A DNA stretch of 64,000 nt, from contig NZ_LMUF01000010.1 of the NCBI RefSeq assembly GCF_009766085.1, positions 530-64,529 on the forward strand, read 5' to 3'. Every line of letters starts with the position of its first letter. Position 1 is the stretch's first letter. Both the position numbers and the translations under genes were made by a program. Below the pieces are notes generated by a model. That model was not told where the DNA came from. It saw nothing but the letters and a program-made list of their open reading frames with translations, and made no database searches. Source of the DNA: Burkholderia sp. S171 (lineage in GTDB: Bacteria > Pseudomonadota > Gammaproteobacteria > Burkholderiales > Burkholderiaceae). This document shows, one piece after another, positions 19,827-61,178 of the stretch.

Positions 19827-20321
19827 CTACCAAACTGCCCGCCCGCTCACGAGTGGCAGTCCTGCTGCGGGACTGTCCACCAGGTACGCATAGTGACAAT
19901 AGCCGCTGTTGTCGTGCGTATAGACAAAGCCTGCGCGCTCGTAGAGAGCCCGTGCCGGATTGTCAGGCTTCACACCGAGTGTGAGCGTTGCGAAACCCTG
20001 CGTGCGTGCGTCGGTTATGAACTCTGTCAGGAGTCGTCGACCGAGTCCGGCGCCGCGCCTATCACGAAGAACGTAAATCGACGCGAGGACGGCGGCGTCG
20101 CCGTGTGCCTCCCAGAAGCAGTACCCTATAAACTCCCCACTACATTCCGCAATGAACATGCGATCGAGATCGTTGCTCCATTGCTTAATGTGCCAATACA
20201 GTCCATCCCTCCAGCGCACTTCCTGTTCTGGCTCGATCTGCCGAATATAGTCGAGTTCGCCGGCATATATCGCCGGGAGGTCAGTAGCATGGGCACGGCG
20301 AATCGCATAAACGTCTGTCAT
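19827..20321 (-). CDS. GNAT-family N-acetyltransferase
   Basis: This 164-residue protein has the GNAT order: IRRAHATDLPAIY at the N-terminus, an AVLASIYVLRDRRGAGLGRRL stretch that includes the acetyl-CoA pyrophosphate loop (R-R-G-A-G-L-G), and the C-terminal NPARALYERAGFVYTHDN. It transfers an acyl group from acyl-CoA to an unidentified amine. It has no operon partner; about 110 bp separate it from the upstream LysR gene. The ribosome site is weak. The acceptor cannot be deduced. Confidence 0.85.
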   Translation of the reverse strand: MTDVYAIRRAHATDLPAIYAGELDYIRQIEPEQEVRWRDGLYWHIKQWSNDLDRMFIAECSGEFIGYCFWEAHGDAAVLASIYVLRDRRGAGLGRRLLTEFITDARTQGFATLTLGVKPDNPARALYERAGFVYTHDNSGYCHYAYLVDSPAAGLPLVSGRAVW

Positions 20322-47038: not shown

Positions 47039-50000
47039 ATGCATCCATCCGATTCCCCCGCCGCCTCGCCCGCACCTGCACCCGCGCTCGGCACCCAGCG
47101 CATCGTCAAGATCCGGCGCGACTACAACGCCTGGGTCGCCGACGAAACGCTAGAGGACTACGCGCTGCGCTTCACGCCCCGGTCGTTTCGAAAGTGGAGC
47201 GAATTCCGGGTCGCGAACACGGCGTTGGGTGCGATTTCGTTCCTCGCGCTGGAAGCGATTGGCGGCTCGCTTGCGCTGAATTACGGCTTCGCCAATACGG
47301 TGTGGGCGATCGTGGTGACGTCCGTGCTGATCTTCCTGACCGGCTTGCCCATCAGCTATTACGCCGCGAATTGCGGTGTCGACATGGACCTGCTGACGCG
47401 AGGCGCGGGGTTTGGTTATCTCGGCTCGACGGTCACGTCGTTGATCTATGCGGGCTTCACCTTTATTTTCTTCGCGCTCGAAGCGGCCATCATGTCGCTC
47501 GCGCTGGAGATGTATTTCCACATGCCGATCGCGGTCGCGTATCTCATCAGCGCCTTCGCGATCGTGCCGTTCGTGACGTTCGGCATTACGCTGATCAACC
47601 GCTTGCAGAGCTGGACGCAGCCCGTGTGGATCGTGCTGCTGGTGGCCCCGTATATCGCCATCCTGATCCGCGAGCCGCATCTTTTTTCCGACTGGGCGAC
47701 CTTCGCGGGCTATGCGCAAGGCGGCCGGGAATTTGGCCTGATGCCGTTCGGCGCCGCTTGCACGGTGATTTTTGCGCTGGTGGTGCAGATTGGTGAACAG
47801 GTCGATTTCCTGCGTTTCCTGCCGCCGCGCACGGCGAAGAACCGGGTGCGCTGGTGGTGCGCGATGCTTGCCGCCGGTCCCGGATGGATCGTGCCGGGCG
47901 CGCTGAAAATGCTCGGCGGTGCGTTCCTGATGTTCCTTGCATTGCAGAATCAGATCGATCCGTCACGGGCCACCGAGCCCACGCAAATGTATCTGGTCGC
48001 GTTCCGCTATGTCTTCGATTCCCCCGGCTTTGCGCTGGCGGCCACCACGCTTTTCGTGATCGTCTCGCAGGTCAAGATCAACGTGACCAACGCGTATGCG
48101 GGTTCGCTCGCATGGTCGAATTTTTTTGCGCGTCTCACGCACAGTCACCCGGGCCGGGTGGTCTGGCTGGTGTTCAACGTGCTGATCGCGTTGATGCTGG
48201 TCGAACTTGGCGTGTTCGGTGCAATCGGCAAGGTGCTGGCGTTGTATTCGAACGTCGCGATTGCCTGGATTGGCGCGCTCGTCGGCGACCTCGTGATCAA
48301 CAAGCCGCTGGGTTACAGCCCGAAGGACGTCGAGTTCAAGCGCGCTCATCTCTACGACGTCAATCCGGTCGGCATCGGCGCGATGCTGGTGGCGTCGATT
48401 GCAGCGGCGCTATCGCAAGCGGGGTATCTCGGCGAAATTGCGCAGGCGTTGGCGCCGTTCATTGCGTTGGCGGTTGCGTTTGTGTGTGCACCGTTGATCG
48501 CGTTCGCTACCCGTGGGCGCTTTTATCTCGCCCGGGGCAGTGAGGATCTCGAAGCGGGGTCGGTGCTGCGTTGCGTGATCTGCGAGAACCAGTTCGAACG
48601 CGAGGACATGGCGTCGTGCCCGGCCTATGCGGGCGCTATCTGTTCGTTGTGCTGTTCGCTCGATTCACGTTGTGGCGACACCTGCAAGCCGCACGCGCGC
48701 TTCTCTTCGCAATTGACGGCCGCTCTCAAACGCGCGTTCCCTACGCTGGAGCCCACGTCGCAGACGTTGCGGGTAGGGCGCTATTTGATCTATCTAACCG
48801 TGACCTTGTCGCTGCTTGGCGCGATGCTTTACCTCTCATATAGCCAGACCGCACTGACACTCGCCACCAGCAACGAGAGCGCGCTGGATACGTTGCTGCG
48901 CGGTTATCTCAAGGCATTCTTCGCGCTGGCGCTGGTCGGTTGCATCGGCGTGTGGTGGCTCGTGCTTGCAAAAGAGAGCCGCGCGGTGACGCAGGAGGAA
49001 TCGAAACGGCAGACCTTGCTGCTGATGCAGGAGATCGAGGCGCACCGTCTGACCGATGCTCGTCTGCAGCAAGCCAGCGCCGCCGCCGATGCCGCCAATC
49101 GCGCAAAGAGCCGCTACGTGACCGGCCTGAGCCACGAGTTGCGCACACCGCTCAACAGTATCCTGGGCTACGCGCAGTTGCTGCTGCGTGGCTCCGGCGC
49201 GGTCGATGCACCGCAACGCGATGCGCTCGCGACTATCTACCGCAGCGGCGAACATCTGCTTGCGCTCGTAGACGGCCTGCTCGACGTCGCACGGATAGAA
49301 GCCGGCAAGTTGCAGCTCGATGTGTCCGAGGTGGCGCTGCCCGACCTTCTGACGCAACTCGGCGCAATGATGGAACCGCAGGCGGCGGAGAAGGGCCTAG
49401 CGTTCCATCTGGAGACAAGCGGCCGCATACCGGAGGTAGTTCGCGCCGATGAAAAACGCGTGCGTCAGATCCTGATCAATTTGCTTGGCAACGCGGTCCG
49501 CTTCACGTCGCATGGCTCGGTCAGGTTGCGGACAAGTCATGCGTGGGGACTGGCGACCTTCGAGATAGAAGACACCGGATCGGGTATTCCTGACGAGCAA
49601 CTGGAAGCCATCTTCCTTCCCTTCGAGCGTGGCGAGGCGGCGCGTCACAACGATCATGGCACCGGCCTGGGCCTGACCATCTGCCGCTTGCTGACGGAAA
49701 TGATGGGCGGGCGGCTGGACGTGCAGAGCCGGGTCGGGTCTGGCACACGCTTCGTCTTGCAACTGTTTCTTCCGGAAGTGCGCGATCCGCGCGTGCTCAT
49801 TACGCGCCCTCGCGACGTGCTGGGATATCCGGGGCGGCGCCGCTCGATCCTGGTAGCAGACGACCTCACGGACCAGCGCCGCATTGTCACCAGCGTGCTC
49901 GAACCGCTCGGCTTCACCATGATCGAAGCGAGCAGTGGGCCGCAGGCGCTGCAACTTCTCGCAACGCATAACGTCGACCTGATCGTGATGGACGTCGCCA

Positions 50001-50488
50001 TGCCATCGATGGACGGCTTTGAGGCCAGCAAGCTCATTCGCGAACATAGGCTGAGCGAGGCGCCCATCCTGATCCTGTCGGCCAACGCATTCGCGGGCGA
50101 TCTGGAGAAGGGCGCGGCGGCTGGTTGTGATGATTACCTCGCCAAACCGCTGCACTTGCCGCTTCTGCTCGACAAGGTCGCCGCCTTGCTCGAGATCGAA
50201 TGGCTGACTGAGGCGGTCGGACCAGCTGACGATACCTCCGCGTCGTCGCAAACCGCATTGCCGCTGCCTGCGAAGCTGGCGCTCGAACTTCGTCGCTTCC
50301 TCGAACTCGGGTACATGGAAGGCTTCGTCGCACAGCTCGATGAAGCCGGGCAGAACCATCCCGAACTCGCCGATACCCTCGCGCCGTTGCGCGAATCGGC
50401 ACGCCGTTTCATGCTTGACGACCTCGACCGGCAATTGCGCGCGGTTGATGGAGCCCTACCCGATGCAGCGACACCCAATGCAGCCTGA
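47039..50488 (+). CDS. NCS1-transporter / hybrid sensor histidine kinase fusion
   Basis: The protein is 1149 residues. About residues 40-490 form an NCS1-type permease of roughly twelve helices (ITLINRLQSWTQPVWIVLLV, IVSQVKINVTNAYAGSLAWS and others). Residues 512-549 hold eight cysteines in CxxC-type spacing (C512, 515, 527, 535, 538, 539, 545, 549). Two more helices follow, then a HisKA with H699 in SHELRTPLNSILGY, a HATPase with DTGSGIP and HGTGLGLTICRLL, and a receiver domain with D985. It probably senses, and may transport, a urea/amide or nucleobase-like ligand. It is divergent from urtA and overlaps the response regulator gene by 26 bp. Confidence 0.92.
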   Translation: MHPSDSPAASPAPAPALGTQRIVKIRRDYNAWVADETLEDYALRFTPRSFRKWSEFRVANTALGAISFLALEAIGGSLALNYGFANTVWAIVVTSVLIFLTGLPISYYAANCGVDMDLLTRGAGFGYLGSTVTSLIYAGFTFIFFALEAAIMSLALEMYFHMPIAVAYLISAFAIVPFVTFGITLINRLQSWTQPVWIVLLVAPYIAILIREPHLFSDWATFAGYAQGGREFGLMPFGAACTVIFALVVQIGEQVDFLRFLPPRTAKNRVRWWCAMLAAGPGWIVPGALKMLGGAFLMFLALQNQIDPSRATEPTQMYLVAFRYVFDSPGFALAATTLFVIVSQVKINVTNAYAGSLAWSNFFARLTHSHPGRVVWLVFNVLIALMLVELGVFGAIGKVLALYSNVAIAWIGALVGDLVINKPLGYSPKDVEFKRAHLYDVNPVGIGAMLVASIAAALSQAGYLGEIAQALAPFIALAVAFVCAPLIAFATRGRFYLARGSEDLEAGSVLRCVICENQFEREDMASCPAYAGAICSLCCSLDSRCGDTCKPHARFSSQLTAALKRAFPTLEPTSQTLRVGRYLIYLTVTLSLLGAMLYLSYSQTALTLATSNESALDTLLRGYLKAFFALALVGCIGVWWLVLAKESRAVTQEESKRQTLLLMQEIEAHRLTDARLQQASAAADAANRAKSRYVTGLSHELRTPLNSILGYAQLLLRGSGAVDAPQRDALATIYRSGEHLLALVDGLLDVARIEAGKLQLDVSEVALPDLLTQLGAMMEPQAAEKGLAFHLETSGRIPEVVRADEKRVRQILINLLGNAVRFTSHGSVRLRTSHAWGLATFEIEDTGSGIPDEQLEAIFLPFERGEAARHNDHGTGLGLTICRLLTEMMGGRLDVQSRVGSGTRFVLQLFLPEVRDPRVLITRPRDVLGYPGRRRSILVADDLTDQRRIVTSVLEPLGFTMIEASSGPQALQLLATHNVDLIVMDVAMPSMDGFEASKLIREHRLSEAPILILSANAFAGDLEKGAAAGCDDYLAKPLHLPLLLDKVAALLEIEWLTEAVGPADDTSASSQTALPLPAKLALELRRFLELGYMEGFVAQLDEAGQNHPELADTLAPLRESARRFMLDDLDRQLRAVDGALPDAATPNAA

Positions 50489-51419
50489 TATTCCACTGGG
50501 ACGCCCAGTAGTGCTGATTGTCGATGACACGCCGGATAATCTCGCCATGCTCTCCAGCGCCCTCGTGGCGGCCGGTTACGCGGTGCTGGTGGCGCTGGAC
50601 GGTGCTTCGGCGCTTGAACGTATCGCGCGCCTCACGCCTGACGTGATCCTGCTCGATGCCATCATGCCCGGCATGGATGGCTTCGAGACCTGCGAGCAAA
50701 TCAAGAGCAATGATTTATACAAGCACATTCCGGTGATCTTCATGACCGCGCTGGCCGACACCCAGCATGTGGTGCAGGGCTTCAGGGTAGGCGGTATCGA
50801 CTATGTGACGAAGCCGATTCGTCCCGATGAAGTGGTCGCGCGGATTGCCGCCCACGTGCGCCGGGCGGCGAGCCAGCGCCATGCGGACATCGTGCTTGAA
50901 CTGAACTCGCGGGCGGCGGTGATTGCGACGGCTCAGGGCGAGGTGCACTGGCATAGCGCGCTTGCCCCGCAGCGGTTGGCGCATTTCTACGGCAACGATA
51001 GCAACGTGGCGATGGCGGCCGGTCCGTTGACGAGGCTGCCGGGAGCGTTGACGAACTGGCTGCTGGATTATTCCGCCGCTCCGGACGAGGACCGGGCGCA
51101 AACCGTCGAGATCCTGCCCGGTGGCGAGCGGCTGGTGTCGCGCATTGCGGGTGCGGCGAATCGCGGCACCTGGATCGTGGTTTTCGAGGAGCATGCCGAC
51201 GGGCGCGATACAGAAGATCTGGCGCTGCGATTTGGGCTCACGCAGCGCGAGGCGGAGGTGTTGCTGTGGTTGTCGCGAGGCAAGACGAATCGCGATATCA
51301 GCGAGATTCTGGGGATGAAACCGCGCACGGTGAACAAGCACCTCGAGCACATCTTCGAGAAGCTGGGCGTGGAAACGCGCACGGCCGCTGCGGCTACGGC
51401 GTTGAGTGGAGGGCGCTGA
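50463..51419 (+). CDS. Two-component response regulator, REC + LuxR-type HTH
   Basis: The N-terminal receiver (residues about 14-130) has VVLIVDDTPDN and the phosphoacceptor D65 in LLDAIMPGMDGFE, with VTKPIRPDEV. A middle segment (about 135-250) of no known fold separates it from the C-terminal LuxR HTH (LTQREAEVLLWLSRGKTNRD, ILGMKPRTVNKHLEHIFEKL). The start at 50463 has GGAG 9 nt upstream; ATGs at 50448 and 50478 are alternatives. It is coupled to the NCS1-kinase gene and is its likely output, probably acting on urtA and/or the kinase promoter. Confidence 0.88.
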   Translation: MQRHPMQPDIPLGRPVVLIVDDTPDNLAMLSSALVAAGYAVLVALDGASALERIARLTPDVILLDAIMPGMDGFETCEQIKSNDLYKHIPVIFMTALADTQHVVQGFRVGGIDYVTKPIRPDEVVARIAAHVRRAASQRHADIVLELNSRAAVIATAQGEVHWHSALAPQRLAHFYGNDSNVAMAAGPLTRLPGALTNWLLDYSAAPDEDRAQTVEILPGGERLVSRIAGAANRGTWIVVFEEHADGRDTEDLALRFGLTQREAEVLLWLSRGKTNRDISEILGMKPRTVNKHLEHIFEKLGVETRTAAAATALSGGR

Positions 51420-51429
51420 ATTTGTGTCG

Positions 51430-51441
51430 TGGTATAGACAG
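51430..51441. promoter_or_regulatory. HutC-type operator candidate 1
   Basis: TGGTATAGACAG fits the shared 12-mer YNGTATAKACNG found six times in this part of the window. It lies 260 bp upstream of the hutH start, just after the response regulator gene. Its distance makes it the least certain of the three sites before hutH. Confidence 0.4.
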
Positions 51442-51617
51442 CATCGGGCGTTGCTGTTTATTACAGGCTTGTTCTTGGTCAGAGCCTTAGAAATTCCGGA
51501 TTAAGCCAAATAAGCATTTATGTAAGCTGAATTCCTCGAATGGTCCTCGTGGTTGTCCGGCCATGCTGCCGCCTGCCGCTAAAAACGTCGCTCGTCATCC
51601 GGACCCTAAAAAATCTC

Positions 51618-51629
51618 TTGTATATACCG
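51618..51629. promoter_or_regulatory. HutC-type operator candidate 2 (hutH promoter)
   Basis: TTGTATATACCG is close to the known HutC core TTGTATATACAA and lies 72 bp before the hutH ATG. It is 43 bp (about four helical turns) from the site at 51661, a spacing suited to cooperative binding. Confidence 0.65.
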
Positions 51630-51660
51630 ATTTTGTTGTCCTAGACTCAAGGCTATTCTC

Positions 51661-51672
51661 TTGTATAGACAA
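51661..51672. promoter_or_regulatory. HutC-type operator candidate 3 (hutH promoter)
   Basis: TTGTATAGACAA, extended to CTTGTATAGACAAG (51660-51673), is a near-perfect palindrome 28 bp before the hutH ATG. It closely resembles HutC/GntR operators. Binding here would block the promoter or early elongation of hutH. Confidence 0.7.
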
Positions 51673-51700
51673 GATAGCGCGCAAGCAAAAGGACGACCCG

Positions 51701-53230
51701 ATGATCAAGCTCACCCCCGGCACACTTACCCTGCCCCAACTTCGCCGCATCGCGCGCGAACGCGTCCAGCTGACGCTGGATCCGGCAAGCCACGCAGTCA
51801 TCGACGCATGCGCGAAAGCGGTGGAGGATATCGCTGCAAAGGGTCTGCCGGCCTATGGCATCAATACCGGTTTCGGGCGGCTGGCGAATACCCACATTCC
51901 TGCGGATCAGCTTGAACTCCTACAACGCAATCTGGTGTTGTCTCATGCGGTGGGAGTAGGTGAGCCCATGTCGCCGCCGGTCGTCCGCTTGCTAATGGCG
52001 TTGAAACTATCGAGCCTCGGACGCGGCCACTCGGGGATCAGGCGCGTTGTAATGGACGCCATGATCACGTTGTTCAACGCGGATATCCTGCCGGTCATTC
52101 CGGTGAAAGGTTCCGTTGGTGCATCGGGAGATCTCGCGCCGCTCGCGCATATGTCGGGTGTGTTGCTGGGTATTGGCGAGGTGTTTATCGACGGCAAGCA
52201 AGTCCCTGCACTTGATGGACTGAAAGCCGCGGGCCTCGAACCGCTGACGCTGCAGGCTAAGGAAGGTCTCGCGCTGCTCAACGGCACGCAGGCTTCGACC
52301 GCGCTTGCCTTGTACAACATGTTCGCGATCGAAGACCTGTATCGCACGGGGCTGGTGTCGGGCGCGCTGTCGGTGGATGCCGCCGAAGGTTCGGTAAAAC
52401 CCTTCGATGCCCGCATTCACTCGCTGCGCGGTCATGCCGGACAGATTGATGCGGCTGCTGCTTATCGCACCTTGCTGGAAGGCTCCGGCATCAACATCTC
52501 GCATGCAGATTGCGACAAAGTTCAGGACCCGTACAGCTTGCGTTGCCAGCCGCAAGTCATGGGCGCATGCCTCGACCAGATGCGCCATGCAGCGAATGTC
52601 TTGTTGATCGAAGCGAATGCCGTATCGGACAATCCGCTGATCTTCCCGGACACGGGCGAAGTGCTGTCGGGCGGCAACTTTCACGCTGAACCCGTTGCGT
52701 TCGCCGCCGATAACCTCGCCATTGCCGCAGCAGAAATTGGTGCGTTGGCCGAGCGACGGATCGCGTTGCTGATCGATGCGACGCTCTCCGGTTTGCCACC
52801 GTTTCTCGTGCGCGATGGCGGCGTGAATTCGGGCTTCATGATCGCGCATGTGACTGCTGCGGCGCTGGCGTCGGAGAACAAGACCTACGCGCATCCGGCG
52901 TCGGTCGATTCGTTGCCGACATCGGCGAATCAGGAAGATCACGTCTCCATGGCGACGTTCGCCGCGCGCAAGCTTGGTTATATTGCGGAGAACGTAGCGC
53001 ATATTCTCGCTATTGAATTGCTGGCGGCGGCGCAAGGTGTGGACCTTCGCGCGCCGCATCAGACAAGTCCGCGTCTGCAGCCGGTCATGCGATCGATTCG
53101 CGCGGACGTCGAACATTACTCGCTCGATCATTACTTCGCACCGGACATCGTGGCGGTGGCGAAGCAGGTAACGAGCGGAGTGATTGCTGCATTCTGTCCG
53201 CTGCATTTCGCATCGGAAGGCGTGGCTTAA
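51701..53230 (+). CDS. hutH: Histidine ammonia-lyase (aromatic amino-acid lyase family)
   Basis: HutH deaminates histidine to urocanate using an MIO prosthetic group formed from A141-S142-G143 in [17 protein letters not shown]. The 509-residue protein has all HAL marks: [64 protein letters not shown] and [18 protein letters not shown] precedes ATG 51701. No hutU, hutI or hutF/G follows; it is convergent with hutC (22-bp gap). Two HutC-type operators lie in its promoter. It is probably a second, specialised hut copy; activity on a histidine analogue is possible. Confidence 0.94.
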
Positions 53231-53252
53231 ATGGGGGCAACAGCAGCGGCGA

Positions 53253-54014
53253 TCAACTTTGCCGCTGCATGTTGTCGGCGCTGAACCTGCATCCCAACCG
53301 ATACCGCGTGCCCGGATGCACGAAGCGCGCGAACGTCACCGCCACGTTATTCGCCCAGGTCCGCCGCACGAGCGTGAGACACGGCTGGTCCGGACCGATC
53401 TCAAGCAGTTTCGCATCTGCACGTGAGGGCAGCACCGCGTCAACCACGTGCTCAACCTCGTGCGCCGGCACGGTATTGAACAGATACTCCGAGGGCCGCA
53501 CCGCTGCGAAATCCTGCTCGAGAAAATGCGGTGCGACATCGGGGTTCACGTAACGGTCTTCAAGTTGAACCGGCACGCCGTTCTCGCGATGCACGCACAC
53601 CACATGGAACACTGACGCGCCCGGCGCAAGTCCGAGCGCCGCCGATACATCGCTGGCCGCCGCCTCGCGTGCAGCGTGCACGATCGTATAACCGTACTCG
53701 TGCCCACGAGCGCGGATTTCATCGCCTATGTGCGCGATCATCAGCAGCGTTGACTGCGGTTTTTCTTCGGCTATAAATGTCCCCACGCCTGAGAAGCGTG
53801 TCAGCACGCCTTGCTCGGTGAGTTCGCGCAACGCCCGGTTGATCGTCATGCGCGAGACGCCCAGTTCGCCGACCAGGGTCATCTCCGATGGAATCCGGTC
53901 GCCGGGCTGCCATTCGCCGGAGACAATGCGCGTGCGGATATGTTCCTTCACACGCTCGTAGCGCGCGAGTGGCGCGGTGGCGGATGCCGGGTTCGAAAGG
54001 CTGGTTGTATTCAT
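53253..54014 (-). CDS. hutC: GntR-family repressor, HutC type (UTRA domain)
   Basis: The N-terminal winged HTH (residues about 18-85) reads VKEHIRTRIVSGEWQPGDRI, PSEMTLVGELGVSRMTINRA and LRELTEQGVLTRFSGVGTFI. A UTRA effector domain follows, with VCVHRENGVPVQLEDRYVNP and ALVRRTW-like CLTLVRRTWANNVAV, the HutC signature end. HutC represses hut genes until urocanate binds. It lies 29 bp after the ABC ATPase on the same strand and may be the last gene of the transporter operon, giving autoregulation through the site at 57295. The GTATAKAC sites are its presumed targets. Confidence 0.9.
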   Translation of the reverse strand: MNTTSLSNPASATAPLARYERVKEHIRTRIVSGEWQPGDRIPSEMTLVGELGVSRMTINRALRELTEQGVLTRFSGVGTFIAEEKPQSTLLMIAHIGDEIRARGHEYGYTIVHAAREAAASDVSAALGLAPGASVFHVVCVHRENGVPVQLEDRYVNPDVAPHFLEQDFAAVRPSEYLFNTVPAHEVEHVVDAVLPSRADAKLLEIGPDQPCLTLVRRTWANNVAVTFARFVHPGTRYRLGCRFSADNMQRQS

Positions 54015-54043
54015 GTCTCGCTCGGGTATGGCGCAGGTATGGC

Positions 54044-54931
54044 TCAGGTTTCGTTGTATCCCGCTGGTTCTGTACTCACGTGGACCGCACTCGCCGACGG
54101 TTCCTCACGTCGCGCCCAAAACGCATTCCGGTCGAGATAGTTCTGCAGGAACTGCTTAAGCCTCGGTTGCTGCGCGTTGTGAAACACGTCCTCGGGCGAT
54201 CCTTGCGCCTCGATTTTGCCATGATCGATGAAGACGACCGTATCTGCGACCTGCGCAGCGAAGCCCATTTCATGCGTAACGATCACCATCGTCATGCCGT
54301 CGTTCGCAAGGTTCTTCATCACTTGCAGCACTTCGCCGACCAGCTCGGGATCGAGCGCGGAGGTGGGTTCGTCGAACAGCATGATGTGCGGTTCCATGGC
54401 CAGCGCGCGGGCAATCGCCACACGTTGCTGCTGCCCGCCGGAGAGTCGCGCCGGATGATTGTCCGCGCGGTCGGCGAGACCGACCTTGTCGAGCATGGCC
54501 AGTGCCCGCTTGCGAGCCTCGGCCTTGGAGAGCTTCCGCACGCGCACCAGCGCCTCGGCCACGTTTTCAACGGCCGTCATATGCGGCCATAGATTGAACT
54601 GCTGGAACACCATGCCCACATTGCGCCGCACGCGGTTGATCTCGGCTTGCGGCGCACGCACGCGCCGGCCGTTGCGATCGGTGACATAACCGATCAATTC
54701 GCCTTCAATATAGATCTCGCCTTCGCTGTATTCCTCGAGGAACGCAAGCGAACGCAGCAGGGTGCTTTTCCCCGAACCCGAAGGTCCGATGATGCAGGTC
54801 ACCTCCGACTTGCGCACGGCGAGCGAGACATCGTCGAGTACTTTCAGCGCGCCAAAATGCTTGCCGACATGCCGTGCATCGACAAGATATTCAGCGGGCG
54901 TTAGCGTGTTGCCAGAATTCGGTTTCTTCAT
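54044..54931 (-). CDS. Histidine-type ABC transporter ATP-binding protein
   Basis: This 295-residue GlnQ/HisP-type ATPase has Walker [20 protein letters not shown]-loop [14 protein letters not shown], signature [19 protein letters not shown] and Walker [16 protein letters not shown]. About 15 extra residues precede the nucleotide-binding domain and a roughly 30-residue tail follows it. It serves the two permeases directly upstream in the transcript. Substrate is probably histidine or a relative, from the linked hutH/hutC. Confidence 0.92.
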
Positions 54932-54981
54932 GACGGGTTCTTCATGATTCAGCGCTCAGTTTGATGGGGGCCAACGCGCGT

Positions 54982-55650
54982 TCACCGCGTGAGGAAGCGG
55001 CCTACGCGGATCTCGACCCACTGTCCGGCTCGCGACGCTACTTCCACGAGCACGAGATAACACACGCACAGCGCGAGCAAGGTTTCGACGAACGCAAACC
55101 GCTCCGAGCCGATACCGGTCAGCACGAACGTCAGCTCCGGCACGGTGACGACCGACAGCACCGCGGTTTCCTTGCTCAGCACAATGATCAGGTTGGTCAG
55201 CGCCGGTACGATGATGACGAGCATCTGCGGCAACTGTACGCGCATGATGACTTGCAGGCGCGTGAAGCCCAGGCACTCAGCGGCTTCTATATGACCGCGC
55301 GGCACCGACGTAAAGCCGGAGCGGAATGCTTCCGCGAAATACGCGCTGCCATAGAGCCCCAGTCCAACAATACCGGCCGTCAGCGGTTCAAGCGAAAGCC
55401 CGAGCGACGGCCCGCCGTAATACAGCACGAAAAGCTGCACGAGAAACGGCGTTCCCCGGAACACCTCTATGTAAGCGCGCAAGAATCCGCGTACCCATTT
55501 GCCGCAGAATATCTGCAGCAACGCGACGGCGAAACCGATCGCCATGCCGATCAACACGCCGCCGATCCACACGGCGATGGTTGTCGCGAACCCTTCGGCC
55601 AGGGCGGGAAGGGAGTCGGTAAGAACTGTGGGGTCGAATTGAAGAGCCAT
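54982..55650 (-). CDS. Histidine-type ABC transporter permease 2
   Basis: This 222-residue HisM/HisQ-type permease has five helices. GFATTIAVWIGGVLIGMAIG opens the domain, and FRSGFTSVPRGHIEAAECLG followed by FTRLQVIMRVQLPQ is the EAA loop. It is 2 bp downstream of the other permease gene, giving a heterodimeric channel. It is part of the SBP-permease-permease-ATPase operon on the minus strand. Confidence 0.92.
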   Translation of the reverse strand: MALQFDPTVLTDSLPALAEGFATTIAVWIGGVLIGMAIGFAVALLQIFCGKWVRGFLRAYIEVFRGTPFLVQLFVLYYGGPSLGLSLEPLTAGIVGLGLYGSAYFAEAFRSGFTSVPRGHIEAAECLGFTRLQVIMRVQLPQMLVIIVPALTNLIIVLSKETAVLSVVTVPELTFVLTGIGSERFAFVETLLALCVCYLVLVEVASRAGQWVEIRVGRFLTR

Positions 55651-55652
55651 GC

Positions 55653-56303
55653 TTATGCCCGTTCCATACGGCGTTCTGCGCGATGCCCGGCCAGCGACAA
55701 CGCCCCGTTGATGACCAGGTACACCAGCCCGGCGGCAACATACGCCTCCAGAGGCCGATACGTGCTGGCCGCAATATTCTGCGCGGTGCGCGTGATATCG
55801 GCGACACCGACCACTGAAATCAACGACGACGCTTTCACCAGCATTACCATCTCATTGACGAGCGAAGGCATGGTCGTGCGCAGCGCCTGAGGCACCTGAA
55901 TACGCAGCACGGCATGCAGCCGCGATAAACCAAGCAACTGCGCCGCTTCGAGTTGCCCATGCGGAATACCGATAAATCCACCCCGCAGGATCTCGGCAAG
56001 ATAAGCGGCTTCGCATAGCGAAACGGCGGTAGCGGCGGCCACGAGCGGCGGCACGTTGATGCCGAGGAAAGGCAGGAAATAGTAGGTCAGCAGAAGCTGC
56101 ACGAGCAGCGGCACGCCGCGGAAGAAGCCGACATACGCGCCGCCCAGCTTCGAGACGAAGCGGCTCTTCGAGAGCCGGGCACTGCACACGGCGATTGCAA
56201 CAATGAAGCCGGCCACCAACCCCACGAGCGAAATCAGGACCGTGGCTTGGGCGGCCTTGATCAGATAGGGAAGGGCATCGAGCAACGCGTGAAGGCTGAA
56301 CAT
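55653..56303 (-). CDS. Histidine-type ABC transporter permease 1
   Basis: This 216-residue permease of the same family has AAQATVLISLVGLVAGFIVA, FFRGVPLLVQLLLTYYFLPF and the EAA loop LRGGFIGIPHGQLEAAQLLG. ATG 56303 is used because the open frame upstream starts only with TTG. It is 83 bp downstream of the binding-protein gene and 2 bp before the second permease. Confidence 0.92.
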   Translation of the reverse strand: MFSLHALLDALPYLIKAAQATVLISLVGLVAGFIVAIAVCSARLSKSRFVSKLGGAYVGFFRGVPLLVQLLLTYYFLPFLGINVPPLVAAATAVSLCEAAYLAEILRGGFIGIPHGQLEAAQLLGLSRLHAVLRIQVPQALRTTMPSLVNEMVMLVKASSLISVVGVADITRTAQNIAASTYRPLEAYVAAGLVYLVINGALSLAGHRAERRMERA

Positions 56304-56386
56304 GGGCTGTCCGGCAAGGAGCAAGGCGCTAATGCGCCTTGCAAGGCATCAATGGTTCGCTGAATCAGCAGTTCAATAGTTAATAG

Positions 56387-57214
56387 TTAATAGTTCGGTG
56401 ACGGCATGGTCGTAGGCGTGTCCATCGTTACGCCGAACCACTTCTTCTGCAAAGCAGCGAGACGACCATCACCGTGCATCTTGACGATTGCCTGATTGAT
56501 CGCGTCGATAAGCGGCTTGCTGTCCGCGTCCTTGCGGCCGAGGTAAGCAAAATATACCTTCGTGCCGAACGGTGGCTGAACGACCGCAAATGTGTCCGGA
56601 CGCTGGCGCGCCACGTAAGCGATATTCGGCAGCGAATTGCCCACGGCAACAATCCGGCCCGCAGCCAGGTCCGCATAGGCCTGGTTGTTGTCGATGTATT
56701 CACGCACGCTCGTCTTGCCCGGCAGCGTGGCAACGTACTGCTTCAACTGATCGAGCTGCGCCGAACCCTTGCCGCCGCCCACTGCTTTGCCGGCAACGTC
56801 CGCGTTCGTCTTGATGCTGGTGTCGTTCGCGCGCTTGAGCAACGCAACCGTGCCGTCGGCAATCGGCAGGGTGAATTCGTAGCGTTCCATGCGCGCCTTG
56901 GTGATGGTCACCGGGCCGCTGACAATATCGAACTTGCCGGCTTCGAGGCCCGGCAGCACGCTGGGCCACGGCAGGTCGATAGAGCGTACTTTCACACCCA
57001 GCTCCTTCGACAACTCGGCGAAGAAGTCCTTGTTAAAGCCCTGTTGCTGGCCGTTTTCCAGGAAGTCGAACGGTGCGAACTGCATCTCGGTTCCGACCAC
57101 CAGTTCGCCCGCCTTCTTGACCTTCGCCAACTGGTCTTCCGCGTGCGCCGAAACCGCTGTCGCGACCAGTGCGGCCACGAGCAGACGACCCTTCCACTTC
57201 GAGAAAAAATTCAT
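56387..57214 (-). CDS. Amino-acid ABC transporter substrate-binding protein (SBP family 3, histidine-type)
   Basis: This 275-residue precursor has a signal peptide ending at SAHAED (residue about 25). The core shows VGTEMQFAPFDFLENGQQQG, an FDIVSGPVTITKARMERYEF domain-1 block and YIDNNQAYADLAAGRIVA in domain 2. GGGAG precedes ATG 57214; the frame stays open to 57310 through the operator region. It is the first gene of the transporter operon. A palindromic GTATATAC site lies 81 bp upstream. Confidence 0.92.
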   Translation of the reverse strand: MNFFSKWKGRLLVAALVATAVSAHAEDQLAKVKKAGELVVGTEMQFAPFDFLENGQQQGFNKDFFAELSKELGVKVRSIDLPWPSVLPGLEAGKFDIVSGPVTITKARMERYEFTLPIADGTVALLKRANDTSIKTNADVAGKAVGGGKGSAQLDQLKQYVATLPGKTSVREYIDNNQAYADLAAGRIVAVGNSLPNIAYVARQRPDTFAVVQPPFGTKVYFAYLGRKDADSKPLIDAINQAIVKMHGDGRLAALQKKWFGVTMDTPTTMPSPNY

Positions 57215-57294
57215 TGTTGAACTCCCCTGGTTAAAAGTGCACCCGGCTTGGGCAAATGTGCGAACCGGTGCGCCGACCTGCATGTGGTGCGATT

Positions 57295-57306
57295 CAGTAT
57301 ATACCG
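57295..57306. promoter_or_regulatory. HutC-type operator candidate 4 (transporter promoter)
   Basis: CAGTATATACCG contains the perfect palindrome GTATATAC (57297-57304), 81 bp upstream of the binding-protein start. It matches the sites upstream of hutH. Confidence 0.6.
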
Positions 57307-57404
57307 TCAATTTGCATTGCCAAGCGTGTCAAAAATACTTCTTGCCACACCATTTCAAGGCTTACAGACTTCGCGAAAACGCCGGGTTGCGCTCGGCTAA
57401 TTGG

Positions 57405-57416
57405 CGGTATATACAG
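57405..57416. promoter_or_regulatory. HutC-type operator candidate 5
   Basis: CGGTATATACAG contains GTATATAC (57407-57414). It lies 110 bp from candidate 4 and about 240 bp upstream of the oxygenase start, centrally in the divergent region. It could control either side. Confidence 0.6.
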
Positions 57417-57622
57417 ACACTTGATCTGGATTCCGGCAGGCGCTTACGGCTTATCTGCAGACGCTTGCGGCCAGGCCGGGGCAGCGGAACGTTAGTCATG
57501 ACAAGCCCCGTGCAGACATTGCATGGCGGCGCGCAGTAAAACGTTTTTTGGGTCGGCCGCGCGTCTTGCGCCCGTTCGGCATGATGTTCGTCACACACGT
57601 GCAAAGGCTCGTTCGAGTCGCA

Positions 57623-57634
57623 CGGTATAGACGG
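57623..57634. promoter_or_regulatory. HutC-type operator candidate 6 (oxygenase promoter)
   Basis: CGGTATAGACGG lies 22 bp upstream of the 2OG-oxygenase ATG. It has the same GTATAGAC core as the hutH-proximal palindrome at 51661. At this position a bound repressor would block transcription of the oxygenase operon. Confidence 0.55.
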
Positions 57635-57656: not shown

Positions 57657-58628
57657 ATGACCTCGACTTCTCACATCCCCGTCGTCGATCTGGCGGCCGT
57701 TCGTGCGTTGGATCCCGCCGGCTTGCGCGAAGCCGCCGCCGCGATCCGCGACGCGTGCACGAGCATCGGATTTTTCTACGTTAGCAACCATGGCGTGCCA
57801 ATCGATGTGCTCGACGGCGCGGTGAAAGCGGCGCGCGAATTCTTTGCGTATCCACCGGAAGTGAAGCGGCGTGCTGCGGTGAATCATCGGCATCGCGGCT
57901 TTAATGCCCTTGGAGACGCCGTCATGTATCAGGCCACCAAACCTGACTACAAGGAGTTTTTCAGCATCGGCCTGGAGTTGCCGGAAAACGATCCGAGCGT
58001 GCTTGCTGGTGAAGCGCTGCGCGGCCCGAACAACTGGCCTGACTTCATGCCGTCGCTGCAACCGGCGCTTTATGGGTACTACGAAGCGATCGGCGAATGT
58101 GGCGCGGATTTGTTGCGGGCTGTTGCGGTGAGCCTGGATATCGACGAAATGTTTTTCGTCAGTAAATACACGAAGCGCATGCAGCGCACACAGATGGTGT
58201 ATTACCCGCCGCAAGCGCCCAAGTCGGACGCGGATCAGTTCGGTGTCGCGCCGCATACAGACTACGGGTGCATCACGCTGCTGTGGCAGGACAACGTGGG
58301 CGGTCTGCAGGTGAAGGAGCTTGCAACCGATAGCTGGATTGACGCGCCGCCGATTCCGGGAACGCTGGTGGTGAACGTGGGTGATCTGCTGGCGCGCTGG
58401 TCGAACGATCGCTTTCGTTCGACGCTGCATCGCGTAATCAATCGTTCGGGCCAGGAGCGATATTCGATCGCGACCTTCTACGATCCGACTTACGGTGCAA
58501 GCGTGGACCCGCGCGATCTTGGTCTTGCGGGCCAGCAGCCGCTGTATGAACCGGTGGCGGCGGGTGACTACATCCTGGGGCGGATCAACGATTCCATGGG
58601 TTATAGAAAGAAGCGCGCGAATGGCTGA
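57657..58628 (+). CDS. 2-Oxoglutarate/Fe(II)-dependent dioxygenase, isopenicillin-N-synthase family
   Basis: The 323-residue enzyme has the iron triad H200, D202 (APHTDYG) and H258 (STLHRVIN) and the 2OG-binding R268-S270. The N-terminus IPVVDLAAVRALDPAG and GFFYVSNHGVP is classic for the family. Members hydroxylate, desaturate or cyclise small molecules. GGAG precedes ATG 57657. It leads a coupled three-gene operon and faces a histidine-type ABC operon with shared operator sites, so its substrate may be an imported imidazole amino acid or derivative (inference). Confidence 0.9.
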   Translation: MTSTSHIPVVDLAAVRALDPAGLREAAAAIRDACTSIGFFYVSNHGVPIDVLDGAVKAAREFFAYPPEVKRRAAVNHRHRGFNALGDAVMYQATKPDYKEFFSIGLELPENDPSVLAGEALRGPNNWPDFMPSLQPALYGYYEAIGECGADLLRAVAVSLDIDEMFFVSKYTKRMQRTQMVYYPPQAPKSDADQFGVAPHTDYGCITLLWQDNVGGLQVKELATDSWIDAPPIPGTLVVNVGDLLARWSNDRFRSTLHRVINRSGQERYSIATFYDPTYGASVDPRDLGLAGQQPLYEPVAAGDYILGRINDSMGYRKKRANG

Positions 58629-60057
58629 GCATACGATGAAACCCATAATACAAACGCTGATTGATGCACTTGGTGCCGAGTCCGTGCGTGTCGGCGATGC
58701 CATCGAACCACGCTATCTCGGCGACTGGAGTGGGAGCTCACCAGTGCCTCCGTTAGCGGTCGTGCTGCCGCGTTCAACCGATGAAGTCGCCACCGTGCTG
58801 CGCCTGTGCAACGAAGCGCGTCAGAGCGTTGTCCCGCAGGGTGGCATGACCGGGCTGGCCGGCGGCGCCATTCCTTCCGGCGGCGATATTTGCCTGTCGC
58901 TCGAACGACTGGTGGGCATCGAAGAGGTTGATCGTGCGGCCGCGACCATGACGGTGCTTGCCGGGACCACATTGCAAACCGTGCAGGACGCCGCGCAGGA
59001 AGCGGGTTTCGAATTTGCGCTCGACCTCGGTGCACGCGGTTCATGTCAGATCGGCGGCAACCTCGCTACGAACGCCGGCGGCGTGCGCGTGCTGCAGTCC
59101 GGCACGGCCCGCGACCAAGTGCTCGGACTCGAAGCCGTGCTCGCCGACGGCAGCGTGCTCAGTTCGATGAACAAGATGGTCAAGAACAATACGGGCTACG
59201 ACCTGCGCAACCTGTTCATCGGTTCAGAAGGGACGCTTGGGGTTATCACGCGTGCGGTGTTACGTTTGAAACCACGCCGCGCCGCGCGCAATACCGCGTT
59301 GTGCGCGCTGAAGGATTACGACGGTGCAGTAGCGTTGCTGCGCTCGCTACAAGCCACTTTTGGCGATGAAATCGGCGCATTCGAAATCATGTGGCCGGAG
59401 TTCTACGACTTTGGTGTTGGACTGACACGCTCCCGGCAGTCGCCGCTTGGCCAGGCGTATCCGCTCTACGCATTGATCGAACAGGCCGGGTTCTCTGACG
59501 ATCACGGCGAACGATTCGCCGCAGCGCTCAACGCACAGCTTGAAGCGGGCGTCGTGACGGATGCGGTTGTTGCGCAGTCGCAAGCGGAGACTCAGGCGTT
59601 GTGGGCGATTCGCGAGGCGACGGCCGAATTGCCGGTGAAGATCGAGCCGATCAATTTGGATGTGAGCTTGCCCATAGGCGAGATCGGTCATTTCGTCGAT
59701 GCCTGCCGCAAGGACTTCACTGCACGCTGGCCGACGCACTACGGTTTGTATTTCGGTCATATCGGCGACTCGAATCTGCATGTCACGCTCGATGCCCGTT
59801 CTATCCCCGGCGTGACGGTGGAAGAGGTCGACCATGCGGTGTATGGCATGGTTCGCGACTACAGCGGGTCCATATCGGCGGAACACGGGATTGGCGTGCT
59901 TAAGCGGCCGTTCCTGGGCTACTCGCGCAGTCCCGCCGAACTTGCTTGTATGCAAGCGATCAAGCATGCCCTCGATCCGCACGGCATCCTGAATCCCGGC
60001 AAGGTGCTGCCTGCCGCGGGCGATCAAGACGCTCGAAACGAACAAGGAACTCAATGA
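58621..60057 (+). CDS. FAD-linked oxidase, GlcD/D-2-hydroxyglutarate dehydrogenase-like
   Basis: The 478-residue flavoprotein has a PCMH-type FAD domain (PLAVVLPRSTDEVATVLRLC, VPQGGMTGLAGGAIPSGGDI, GSCQIGGNLATNAGGVRVLQ) and a GlcD-type C-terminal domain. The latter includes HYGLYFGHIGDSNLHVTLDA and AEHGIGVLKRPFLGYSRSPA. The family oxidises D-2-hydroxyacids to 2-oxoacids, passing electrons to ETF or quinones. ATG 58621 overlaps the oxygenase stop by 8 bp; ATG 58636 is possible. Paired with an aminotransferase, it would interconvert a hydroxyacid, its oxoacid and an amino acid. Confidence 0.9.
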   Translation: MAEHTMKPIIQTLIDALGAESVRVGDAIEPRYLGDWSGSSPVPPLAVVLPRSTDEVATVLRLCNEARQSVVPQGGMTGLAGGAIPSGGDICLSLERLVGIEEVDRAAATMTVLAGTTLQTVQDAAQEAGFEFALDLGARGSCQIGGNLATNAGGVRVLQSGTARDQVLGLEAVLADGSVLSSMNKMVKNNTGYDLRNLFIGSEGTLGVITRAVLRLKPRRAARNTALCALKDYDGAVALLRSLQATFGDEIGAFEIMWPEFYDFGVGLTRSRQSPLGQAYPLYALIEQAGFSDDHGERFAAALNAQLEAGVVTDAVVAQSQAETQALWAIREATAELPVKIEPINLDVSLPIGEIGHFVDACRKDFTARWPTHYGLYFGHIGDSNLHVTLDARSIPGVTVEEVDHAVYGMVRDYSGSISAEHGIGVLKRPFLGYSRSPAELACMQAIKHALDPHGILNPGKVLPAAGDQDARNEQGTQ

Positions 60058-61178
60058 GCGTGACTGCTTTTATAGAAAGCCTGCGTGCCGAAGTGCGCGG
60101 CCTGCCTGTTTACAACGCGGGGTTATCGGGGGAATTCGTGCGGGCGCGTTATTGCGTCTCGCATGTCGCCAAGCTCGGCAGCAATGAAAATCCACGTGGG
60201 GCGAGCGCGGCCGTGCTTGCGCATCTTGCCCAGTTCACCACGGCCGGCACGCTCGCGCTGTATCCCGATCCTTCATGCAGCGCGTTGCGTACGCTGATTG
60301 CTGAACGGCTCGAAGTCAATCAGGAGCAGTTGTTGTTCGGCAACGGCTCCGAGGACTTGCTCGCCATTGCAGCCCATACGTTCCTCGCGCCCGGCGATGA
60401 AGTGATCACCGTGATTCCGTCGTTTGGCTTACACATCATCTATCCGCAAAGTGTTGGCGCAATGGTGACCACGGTACCGATGCGGCCGGACTTCGAATTC
60501 GATGTCGACGCATTAGCCGCGGCTATCTCGCCGCGAACGCGGATGTTAATTATTAGTAATCCTAGTAATCCAGTTGGTTGCGCGATGGACGCTGCTGAAA
60601 TGCATCGGCTATTGGGCGCGGTGTCGCCGGGGACACTGGTGCTGTGGGACGAGGCCTATTTCGAATATGCCTCCAATGAAAACGGTTACCCGGACAGTCT
60701 TGCTGTGCTGCGTGAATCAGGTTTGCCGTGGCTGTTGCTGCGTACCTTTTCGAAGGCGTATGGATTGGCGGCGTTGCGGGTGGGATACGGCGTGGCGTCG
60801 GCGCCAGAACTCGCCGGGCTGATGAACCGCGTGCGTACGCCGTTTAATATCAACCAGATTGCGCAGGAGGCCGCGGCGGTGGCGTTCGGCGATCAGGCGC
60901 ATGTTGCGGCTAGCGTGGAGCAGGCTCGAGCGGGGCGTGAATGGATGCGCGCTGCGTTGATCGGGCTGGGTGTGAATCCGGCATGCTCGCGCGCCAATTT
61001 TGTGTTCTTCGATTGCGGAGAGGACGCAGCCAAGCTCGCGGGGAGGATGCTTGAGGACGGGGTGATTGTGAAGCCCTGGCGCGAGCCGGGTTATGAAACC
61101 TGCATGCGCGTGAGCGTTGGGAGCGTGGCAGATAACGCTTTGTTTATCGAGTCGTTCGAACGTCGCCGCGGCAAGTGA
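60054..61178 (+). CDS. HisC-like class I/II aminotransferase
   Basis: This 374-residue PLP enzyme resembles histidinol-phosphate aminotransferase. It has LGSNENPRGASAAVLAHLAQ at the N-terminus, NPSNPVGC (N169-P170), WDEAYFEY (D199) and the PLP lysine K234 in RTFSKAYGLAALRVGYG. AAGGAA precedes ATG 60054, which overlaps the upstream stop by 4 bp. Housekeeping hisC should be elsewhere with the his operon, so this is a paralogue. Together with hutH and the histidine-type transporter it could act on histidine/imidazolepyruvate or an aromatic analogue. Confidence 0.88.
   Translation: MSVTAFIESLRAEVRGLPVYNAGLSGEFVRARYCVSHVAKLGSNENPRGASAAVLAHLAQFTTAGTLALYPDPSCSALRTLIAERLEVNQEQLLFGNGSEDLLAIAAHTFLAPGDEVITVIPSFGLHIIYPQSVGAMVTTVPMRPDFEFDVDALAAAISPRTRMLIISNPSNPVGCAMDAAEMHRLLGAVSPGTLVLWDEAYFEYASNENGYPDSLAVLRESGLPWLLLRTFSKAYGLAALRVGYGVASAPELAGLMNRVRTPFNINQIAQEAAAVAFGDQAHVAASVEQARAGREWMRAALIGLGVNPACSRANFVFFDCGEDAAKLAGRMLEDGVIVKPWREPGYETCMRVSVGSVADNALFIESFERRRGK

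Follow-up and report, generated by a model that had tools for sequence, protein, structure and literature searches.

The closest described system to the one reported here is the proteobacterial HutC regulon (TIGR02018; PMC5343134, PMC12977541). HutC of Pseudomonas is reported to bind TGTA-N2-TACA, to be released by urocanate and to form tetramers (PMC12977541), and in Burkholderia an importer of the HisJMPQ type is a reported HutC target (PMC5343134, PMC12977541). For the HutC subfamily, the consensus NyGTMTAKACNy has been published, and double sites at a constant distance make up one of its published classes (PMC4494728). Here, we analysed a stretch of 64,000 nucleotides from Burkholderia sp. 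S171 (contig NZ_LMUF01000010.1, positions 530 to 64,529; hereafter the window), in which six GTATAKAC sites accompany a histidine ammonia-lyase gene (hutH), a gene for a HutC-type regulator, an ATP-binding cassette (ABC) importer operon and genes for a 2-oxoglutarate/Fe(II) oxygenase, a flavin adenine dinucleotide (FAD)-linked enzyme and an aminotransferase. As far as the accessible parts of these articles describe the HutC regulon, the locus shares with it a GntR/UTRA repressor, GTATA-centred dyads and hutH as a target, and the importer as a likely target here parallels the HisJMPQ-type importer. It differs in that the regulator is a paralogue, the operators are C/R-flanked and the likely targets add the oxygenase, the FAD enzyme and the aminotransferase. 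We consider it likely that the six sites are operators of the repressor encoded at 53253-54014, which would shut both divergent promoters, probably through a DNA loop, answer to a histidine-type ligand and control enzymes leading from an imidazole compound to histidine.

A preliminary description of this DNA had pointed to six 12-mers, and these were indeed present, starting at 51430, 51618, 51661, 57295, 57405 and 57623 (octamers at 51432, 51620, 51663, 57297, 57407 and 57625). Three of the octamers are the perfect dyad GTATATAC and three are GTATAGAC, a single mismatch from the dyad. Scanning the window for GTATAKAC yielded 10 strand matches at 7 places, against a mean of 0.47 in dinucleotide shuffles, of which 0/100 reached 10. 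The seventh place, a GTATAGAC at 19918 within the open reading frame (ORF) of a GNAT acetyltransferase (19827-20321), corrects the earlier statement that no further site occurs in the window. The accompanying statement that all six are noncoding fails for mechanically called ORFs, which cover 51618, 51661 and 57295; it holds for the likely gene starts, because these are ATG 51701 for hutH and ATG 57217 for the binding-protein gene, the latter consistent in an alignment of 19 relatives, and they leave all six sites intergenic. A genome-wide motif scan (8.49 Mb, 78 contigs), which had been proposed as a check, did not single the octamer out: there were 56+48 strand matches versus 42+48 for the reversed control. 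The octamer was thus rejected as a genome-wide enriched motif, and since the totals are 104 and 90, it is no regulon marker by itself. The window operators fit NyGTMTAKACNy, and the motif itself is not new because its GTATAKAC core fits this consensus, as far as the article gives it (PMC4494728). The distinctive features are the local cluster and the flanks rather than the octamer alone. Six sites lie in 6.2 kb, versus roughly one place per 95 kb genome-wide (our own arithmetic, among the matches listed), and CRGTATATAC has 6 strand matches genome-wide, at 5 places of which 3 belong to this cluster. Overall, the six near-palindromes are very probably real switch sites.

We then compared the locus with its relatives. 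A query with the oxygenase against named genomes returned 128 loci, of which the best 80 were kept, mainly from Caballeronia, Paraburkholderia, Burkholderia-named strains and Pandoraea (L numbers below denote loci, C numbers contigs of the genome). The regulator, the four importer genes and the FAD gene were present at at least 50% identity in 80/80 loci, the oxygenase being the query. In every one of them the gap between importer and oxygenase genes holds GTATAKAC, with two sites in 71 loci and three in 9, the third gap site of the window thus representing the minority form (9/80). The 169 gap sites correspond to 6.1 per kb, compared with 0.031 per kb for the remaining 1.6 Mb of these loci (49 sites), a difference of about 200-fold. 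The regulon claim is well supported by this comparison. A GTATAGAC box at positions 240-381 in 13/80 loci was also considered as an operator and rejected, as by reading it resembles the coding sequence of a neighbouring gene.

The regulator passes the NCBIfam HutC model TIGR02018, on which four proteins of the genome, the cluster regulator included, score 217-310 bits; besides it and the hut-operon regulator, two further proteins reach 254.7 and 217.3 bits. The hutH gene of the locus beside the best-scoring HutC looks split across two draft contigs (C50 end, C45 start). The cluster regulator is 41.5% identical to the hut-operon regulator of this genome versus 64-85% to five aligned counterparts, and the alignment shows that the two groups diverge where the recognition helix begins and also in the wing; these residue differences may account for a difference in operator flanks. 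At seven boxes of other hut loci, hand-picked beside hut-related genes (hutH at C50, importer-hutH2 and hutU at C67, permease at C49), T flanks GT on the outside in 14/14 halves, compared with 5/12 in the cluster. The box close to the C58 lyase, whose flanks are mixed (G/T) and which lies within an upstream ORF, was omitted from this count (T in 15/16 with it included), as were boxes having no adjacent hut gene, such as the T-flanked ones at C67:192880 and 192914. Among the relatives, the conserved pair is CAGTATATACCG plus GGCGGTATATACA, and an outer T occurs in 22/142 halves of 71 distinct sites. The extended form TTGTATAKACA has 13 strand matches genome-wide, one of them at the hutH studied here. 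In terms of sequence, the conserved sites are CRGTATATAC, distinct from the T-flanked boxes of most other hut loci in the genome.

Both kinds of box come together before hutH. Nine hutH promoters with boxes were available, the window included, while those of L039, L044 and L045 were absent or incomplete in the sequences compared. Eight of the nine have the three-box arrangement (variant, hybrid, T-flanked), carry the hybrid TTGTATATACCG and keep 43 bp between boxes b and c; the ninth, L048, has two other boxes 39 bp apart and no hybrid. A box comparable to a was found in the 7 close relatives with a three-box promoter, at 165-198 bp from b. Because its promoter holds a T-flanked box plus variant ones, hutH is probably controlled by two HutC paralogues. 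The earlier regulon reading stands as regards a HutC-type regulator with linked conserved sites, but its single repressor for all targets probably does not, and control of lyase, importer and enzymes by one effector is a conjecture. For the hutH promoter, a common helical phase looked suggestive and was dropped, there being 8 promoters and few events; the a-b spacings (165, 168, 168, 176, 177, 188, 188 and 198 bp) fit 11-bp steps only roughly, with 168 off. Promoter inspection found no sigma-70-like promoter for hutH.

In the importer-oxygenase gap, the operators overlap promoter-like elements. On the oxygenase side, where operator 2 overlies a conserved promoter-like -10, a conserved TTGC forms part of a hexamer 17 bp before TATAC(A/C) within this operator, and on the importer side the window reads TTGGCA-16-TATACT, the TATACT lying within operator 1.

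Next, we examined the distance between operators 1 and 2. Across 79 loci (L065 was excluded from every spacing count), it falls into steps of 98-100 bp (42 loci), 109-111 bp (17), 121-124 bp (14), 132-133 bp (2), 136 bp (1) and 143-144 bp (3). The phase concentration over distinct spacings was R = 0.785 near 11.35 bp, a value that 0/3000 draws treating the values as free attained. Four control distances, measured to tblastn match ends rather than to verified start codons, gave R of 0.26-0.32 and were matched in 331 (operator 2-oxygenase), 180 (importer-operator 1), 139 (operator 1-oxygenase) and 636 (importer-operator 2) of 3000 draws. Mapping the spacing classes onto a tree of these 79 loci requires at least 10 changes of class, and of the six classes the 136 bp one alone is off phase. 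A pattern scan of 398 genomes of the family for spacings of 66-158 bp found 56 pairs (54 genomes), of which 55 deviate by no more than about 2 bp from an 11-bp series; pairs at 120 bp and a single pair at 76 bp are counted among these, and the 398 genomes probably share species with the 80 loci and are no independent sample. Stepwise spacing of about 11 bp suggests repression via a DNA loop. As a separate observation, L125 has a second importer binding-protein gene behind two variant boxes (1501 and 1577) 76 bp apart, a distance that differs from the main spacing classes by close to an integral number of 11-bp turns.

The gene neighbourhoods bear on the function of the cluster. In the 16/80 loci with an aminotransferase gene, it follows the FAD gene in ten (L039-L047 and L115; L048 is apart) and lies between the HutC and ATPase genes, inside the importer operon, in five (L058, L062, L064, L065 and L077). 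In L048, both this gene and hutH are located separately, each preceded by its own two boxes; in the cases visible, a relocated aminotransferase or hutH gene keeps boxes or sits within a boxed operon. Pandoraea L058 carries on the minus strand, in order, the importer, aminotransferase, HutC, HutH and urocanase genes, while in Azospirillum thermophilum (L119) a 54% identical oxygenase is clustered with hutG, formimidoylglutamate deiminase, hutC, hutI, hutH and hutU. These linkages tie the oxygenase gene to histidine catabolism without naming the enzyme's substrate.

The sites, their conservation, flank classes, phased spacing and gene linkage are established by sequence, and from them we infer binding, looping, ligand and pathway. 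A repressor dimer at operator 2 would cover the oxygenase promoter's -10 region, and a dimer at operator 1 would probably likewise cover the promoter of the importer-repressor operon; with both divergent promoters shut, the repressor would limit its own synthesis. The two dimers, lying on one helix face, would probably join and loop roughly 100-145 bp until released by a ligand of the histidine type (urocanate or some related imidazole acid). The hutH gene, with its T-flanked, variant and hybrid boxes, would probably be under this repressor as well as the main hut operon's HutC. The enzymes would most likely convert some imidazole compound to histidine, the FAD enzyme taking a 2-hydroxy acid to a 2-oxo acid and the HisC-like aminotransferase taking the 2-oxo acid to histidine, from which HutH would then yield urocanate.

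Several observations weigh against this model. The exact TGTA-N2-TACA is absent among the window sites, the site at 51661 having both outer bases but GACA for TACA, and most conserved half-sites lack the outer T, as counted above. On another HutC model, NF011575 (PRK14999), the regulator stays below the threshold (241.3 versus 424 bits), and because of this score we call it a HutC-type paralogue and not an orthologue of characterised HutC. The importer-side -35 is not conserved among relatives, a conserved -35 being found on the oxygenase side only. The aminotransferase occurs in only 16/80 loci and HutH (at least 50% identity) in only 12/80. In Azospirillum L119, no GTATAKAC precedes the oxygenase, the sole box lying between hutC and hutI, and FAD and aminotransferase genes are not listed in the gene table, which can be incomplete. 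As for the spacing, the least comfortable control is the operator 1-oxygenase distance, which includes the operator spacing and was matched in just 139/3000 draws. The crude p of about 0.004 for 9/10 tree changes in phase comes from loci of related species, whose 79 spacings are non-independent; both count and p are more cautious than the draws over free values, but their +-2 bp window and their spacing classes were set after viewing the data. The 136 bp spacing of L048 is off phase and the operators of L065 are 3.6 kb apart, and short-range looping is hence not obligatory.

Different explanations of the sites can be weighed against these data. That an AT-rich octamer has clustered here by chance is hardly credible: although it is barely commoner genome-wide than its reversed control (104 versus 90 strand matches), 0/100 window shuffles reach the observed count, and the importer-oxygenase gap carries sites in 80/80 relatives. 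It is also very unlikely that the palindromes are mere conserved -10 elements, AT-rich and symmetric by coincidence. The TATACT and TATACA inside operators 1 and 2 would suit this explanation, but the conservation of operator 1 spans both sides of the dyad, about gCGGTATATACTGc, an extent that a -10 does not need; moreover, hutH and the relocated aminotransferase carry two or three boxes each, and the core matches the HutC-subfamily consensus. If the sites are indeed operators, they might still be operated by the HutC of the hut operon (contig C45) or by a further paralogue, the adjacent regulator having some other role. We hold this to be improbable, given that the adjacent regulator is present in 80/80 loci, that the outer T is found in 14/14 halves at the seven chosen hut boxes versus 5/12 in the cluster (the mixed C58 box omitted) and that the two groups of proteins are unlike in the recognition-helix and wing stretches, even though four genome proteins score 217-310 bits on TIGR02018 and one box at hutH carries T on either flank, as at other hut loci.

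The most substantial competitor concerns the loop, and we grant it an appreciable, albeit minority, chance of being right: the operators may act independently, with the 11-bp steps arising from divergent-promoter or supercoiling constraints, or from descent, and no repressor loop. L065, with an operator at each promoter and 3.6 kb between them, and the off-phase L048 would both be explained in this way, and the published double-site divergons, as far as the article describes them, include an independent class (PMC4494728). On the other hand, the operator-to-gene distances of the same loci show no clear period, and 55/56 pairs in the 398-genome scan, for which species overlap is probable, match the 11-bp series to about 2 bp.

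Table 1. Genes and predicted operators of the cluster (window positions)
Feature	Position	Strand	Remarks
Operator a of hutH, predicted, TGGTATAGACAG	51430..51441	+	Variant flank on one side
Operator b of hutH, predicted, TTGTATATACCG	51618..51629	+	Hybrid: T-flanked half and variant half
Operator c of hutH, predicted, TTGTATAGACAA	51661..51672	+	T-flanked on both sides, as at other hut loci here
hutH, histidine ammonia-lyase	51701..53230	+	Intact 4-methylideneimidazole-5-one (MIO) triad ASG; TIGR01225 683.5 bits, cut-off 539.15
HutC-type GntR/UTRA repressor	53253..54014	-	TIGR02018 304.9 bits, cut-off 220; PF00392, PF07702
ABC importer ATP-binding protein, polar amino acid type	54044..54931	-	PF00005
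ABC importer permease 1	54982..55650	-	PF00528, TIGR01726
ABC importer permease 2	55653..56324	-	PF00528, TIGR01726
ABC importer binding protein	56387..57217	-	PF00497; start ATG 57217, consistent in relatives
Operator 1, importer side, predicted, CAGTATATACCG	57295..57306	-	Contains TATACT of promoter-like minus-strand site
Operator 2, oxygenase side, predicted, CGGTATATACAG	57405..57416	+	Holds TATACA 17 bp after conserved TTGC; 110 bp from operator 1
Operator 3, predicted, CGGTATAGACGG	57623..57634	+	About 28 bp upstream of oxygenase start; in few relatives only
2-Oxoglutarate/Fe(II) oxygenase	57657..58628	+	PF14226, PF03171; nearest solved chains 9ovh, 6jyv
FAD-linked 2-hydroxy-acid oxidase/dehydrogenase-like enzyme	58618..60057	+	PF01565, PF02913
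HisC-like aminotransferase	60048..61178	+	PF00155; PRK05166 489.1 bits, below cut-off 540

By pattern match (not structure alignment), the oxygenase, which is of the isopenicillin N synthase type, has the iron ligands H200/D202 (HxD) and H258 and the RxS residues R268-S270. Among solved structures, the FAD enzyme comes closest to D-2-hydroxy-acid dehydrogenases, its nearest entries being 3pm9 and mitochondrial D-2-hydroxyglutarate dehydrogenase (6lpn). Directly before hutH (47039-51419), the window encodes a protein of 1149 residues, with histidine kinase and receiver domains and, by reading, a lengthy hydrophobic stretch at the N terminus; a receiver-LuxR regulator comes next. This kinase is present in 4/80 relatives (L040, L041, L042 and L046).

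HutH-like lyases having no MIO triad were found at L023:6329-8017 (own genome, C67), in L017 (own genome, C2) and at L092:3097-4764, the MIO region being replaced by GSVGY---LSHMAH (C67, L092) or GSVGY---LIATAH (C2); the triad is likewise missing in 40/40 relatives with a HutH of 35-50% identity. The C67 copy lies after an importer gene set and before a urocanase gene, with HutC-type boxes. The C67 enzyme could release trimethylamine from hercynine or ergothioneine, ergothionase being a lyase of this kind. Elsewhere on C67, two perfect TTGTATATACAA boxes at 192880 and 192914 (L022:4881-4922) stand 34 bp apart between TonB-like and major facilitator superfamily (MFS) genes, with no hut gene identified beside them. 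On C49 (L024:7314 and 7465), two HutC-type boxes 151 bp apart lie between chemoreceptor and purine/cytosine-type permease genes; a COG1457 purine/allantoin-type transporter has been reported in HutC regulons (PMC5343134).

With respect to spacing, the locus resembles the HutC-subfamily double-site divergons, which, as far as the article describes them, have two sites between divergent operons, one with the regulator gene (PMC4494728). Unlike in those divergons, the inter-site distance here shifts in helical steps, and the terms 'periodic' and 'helix turn' are absent from the main text of that article; among the matches listed by a literature search on HutC and DNA looping, it alone was relevant to HutC. 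For lac, repression is reported to oscillate with operator spacing, with loops of 6-8 turns (PMC5081198); compared with these repression loops, the loop here is proposed from evolutionary spacing alone. Regarding the enzymes, 'oxygenase' and 'aminotransferase' are absent from the main text of PMC5343134 (main text only; supplements and RegPrecise lay outside the search), and no imidazole or histidine pathway for an oxygenase-FAD-aminotransferase set appeared among the matches listed from a mostly open-access literature; these targets may have been predicted earlier.

The kind of system, a HutC regulon, is known, and what is new would be the operator code of the paralogue and the helical spacing, both of them predictions. 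A more far-reaching proposal, offered tentatively and on balance rather doubtful in its entirety, is that a HutC-type paralogue with a separate operator code governs an imidazole-catabolic branch not described before, in which oxygenase, 2-hydroxy-acid oxidase and HisC-like aminotransferase supply HutH with histidine; the branch would be repressed through a short loop whose spacing evolves by whole turns, and wired to the ordinary HutC by the hybrid hutH operator. The relatives provide a natural many-species series of operator pairs, in which the spacing classes would act as evolved helical-phase mutants for looping, and an oxygenase-FAD-aminotransferase branch attached to histidine breakdown is indicated in soil- and plant-associated Burkholderiaceae.

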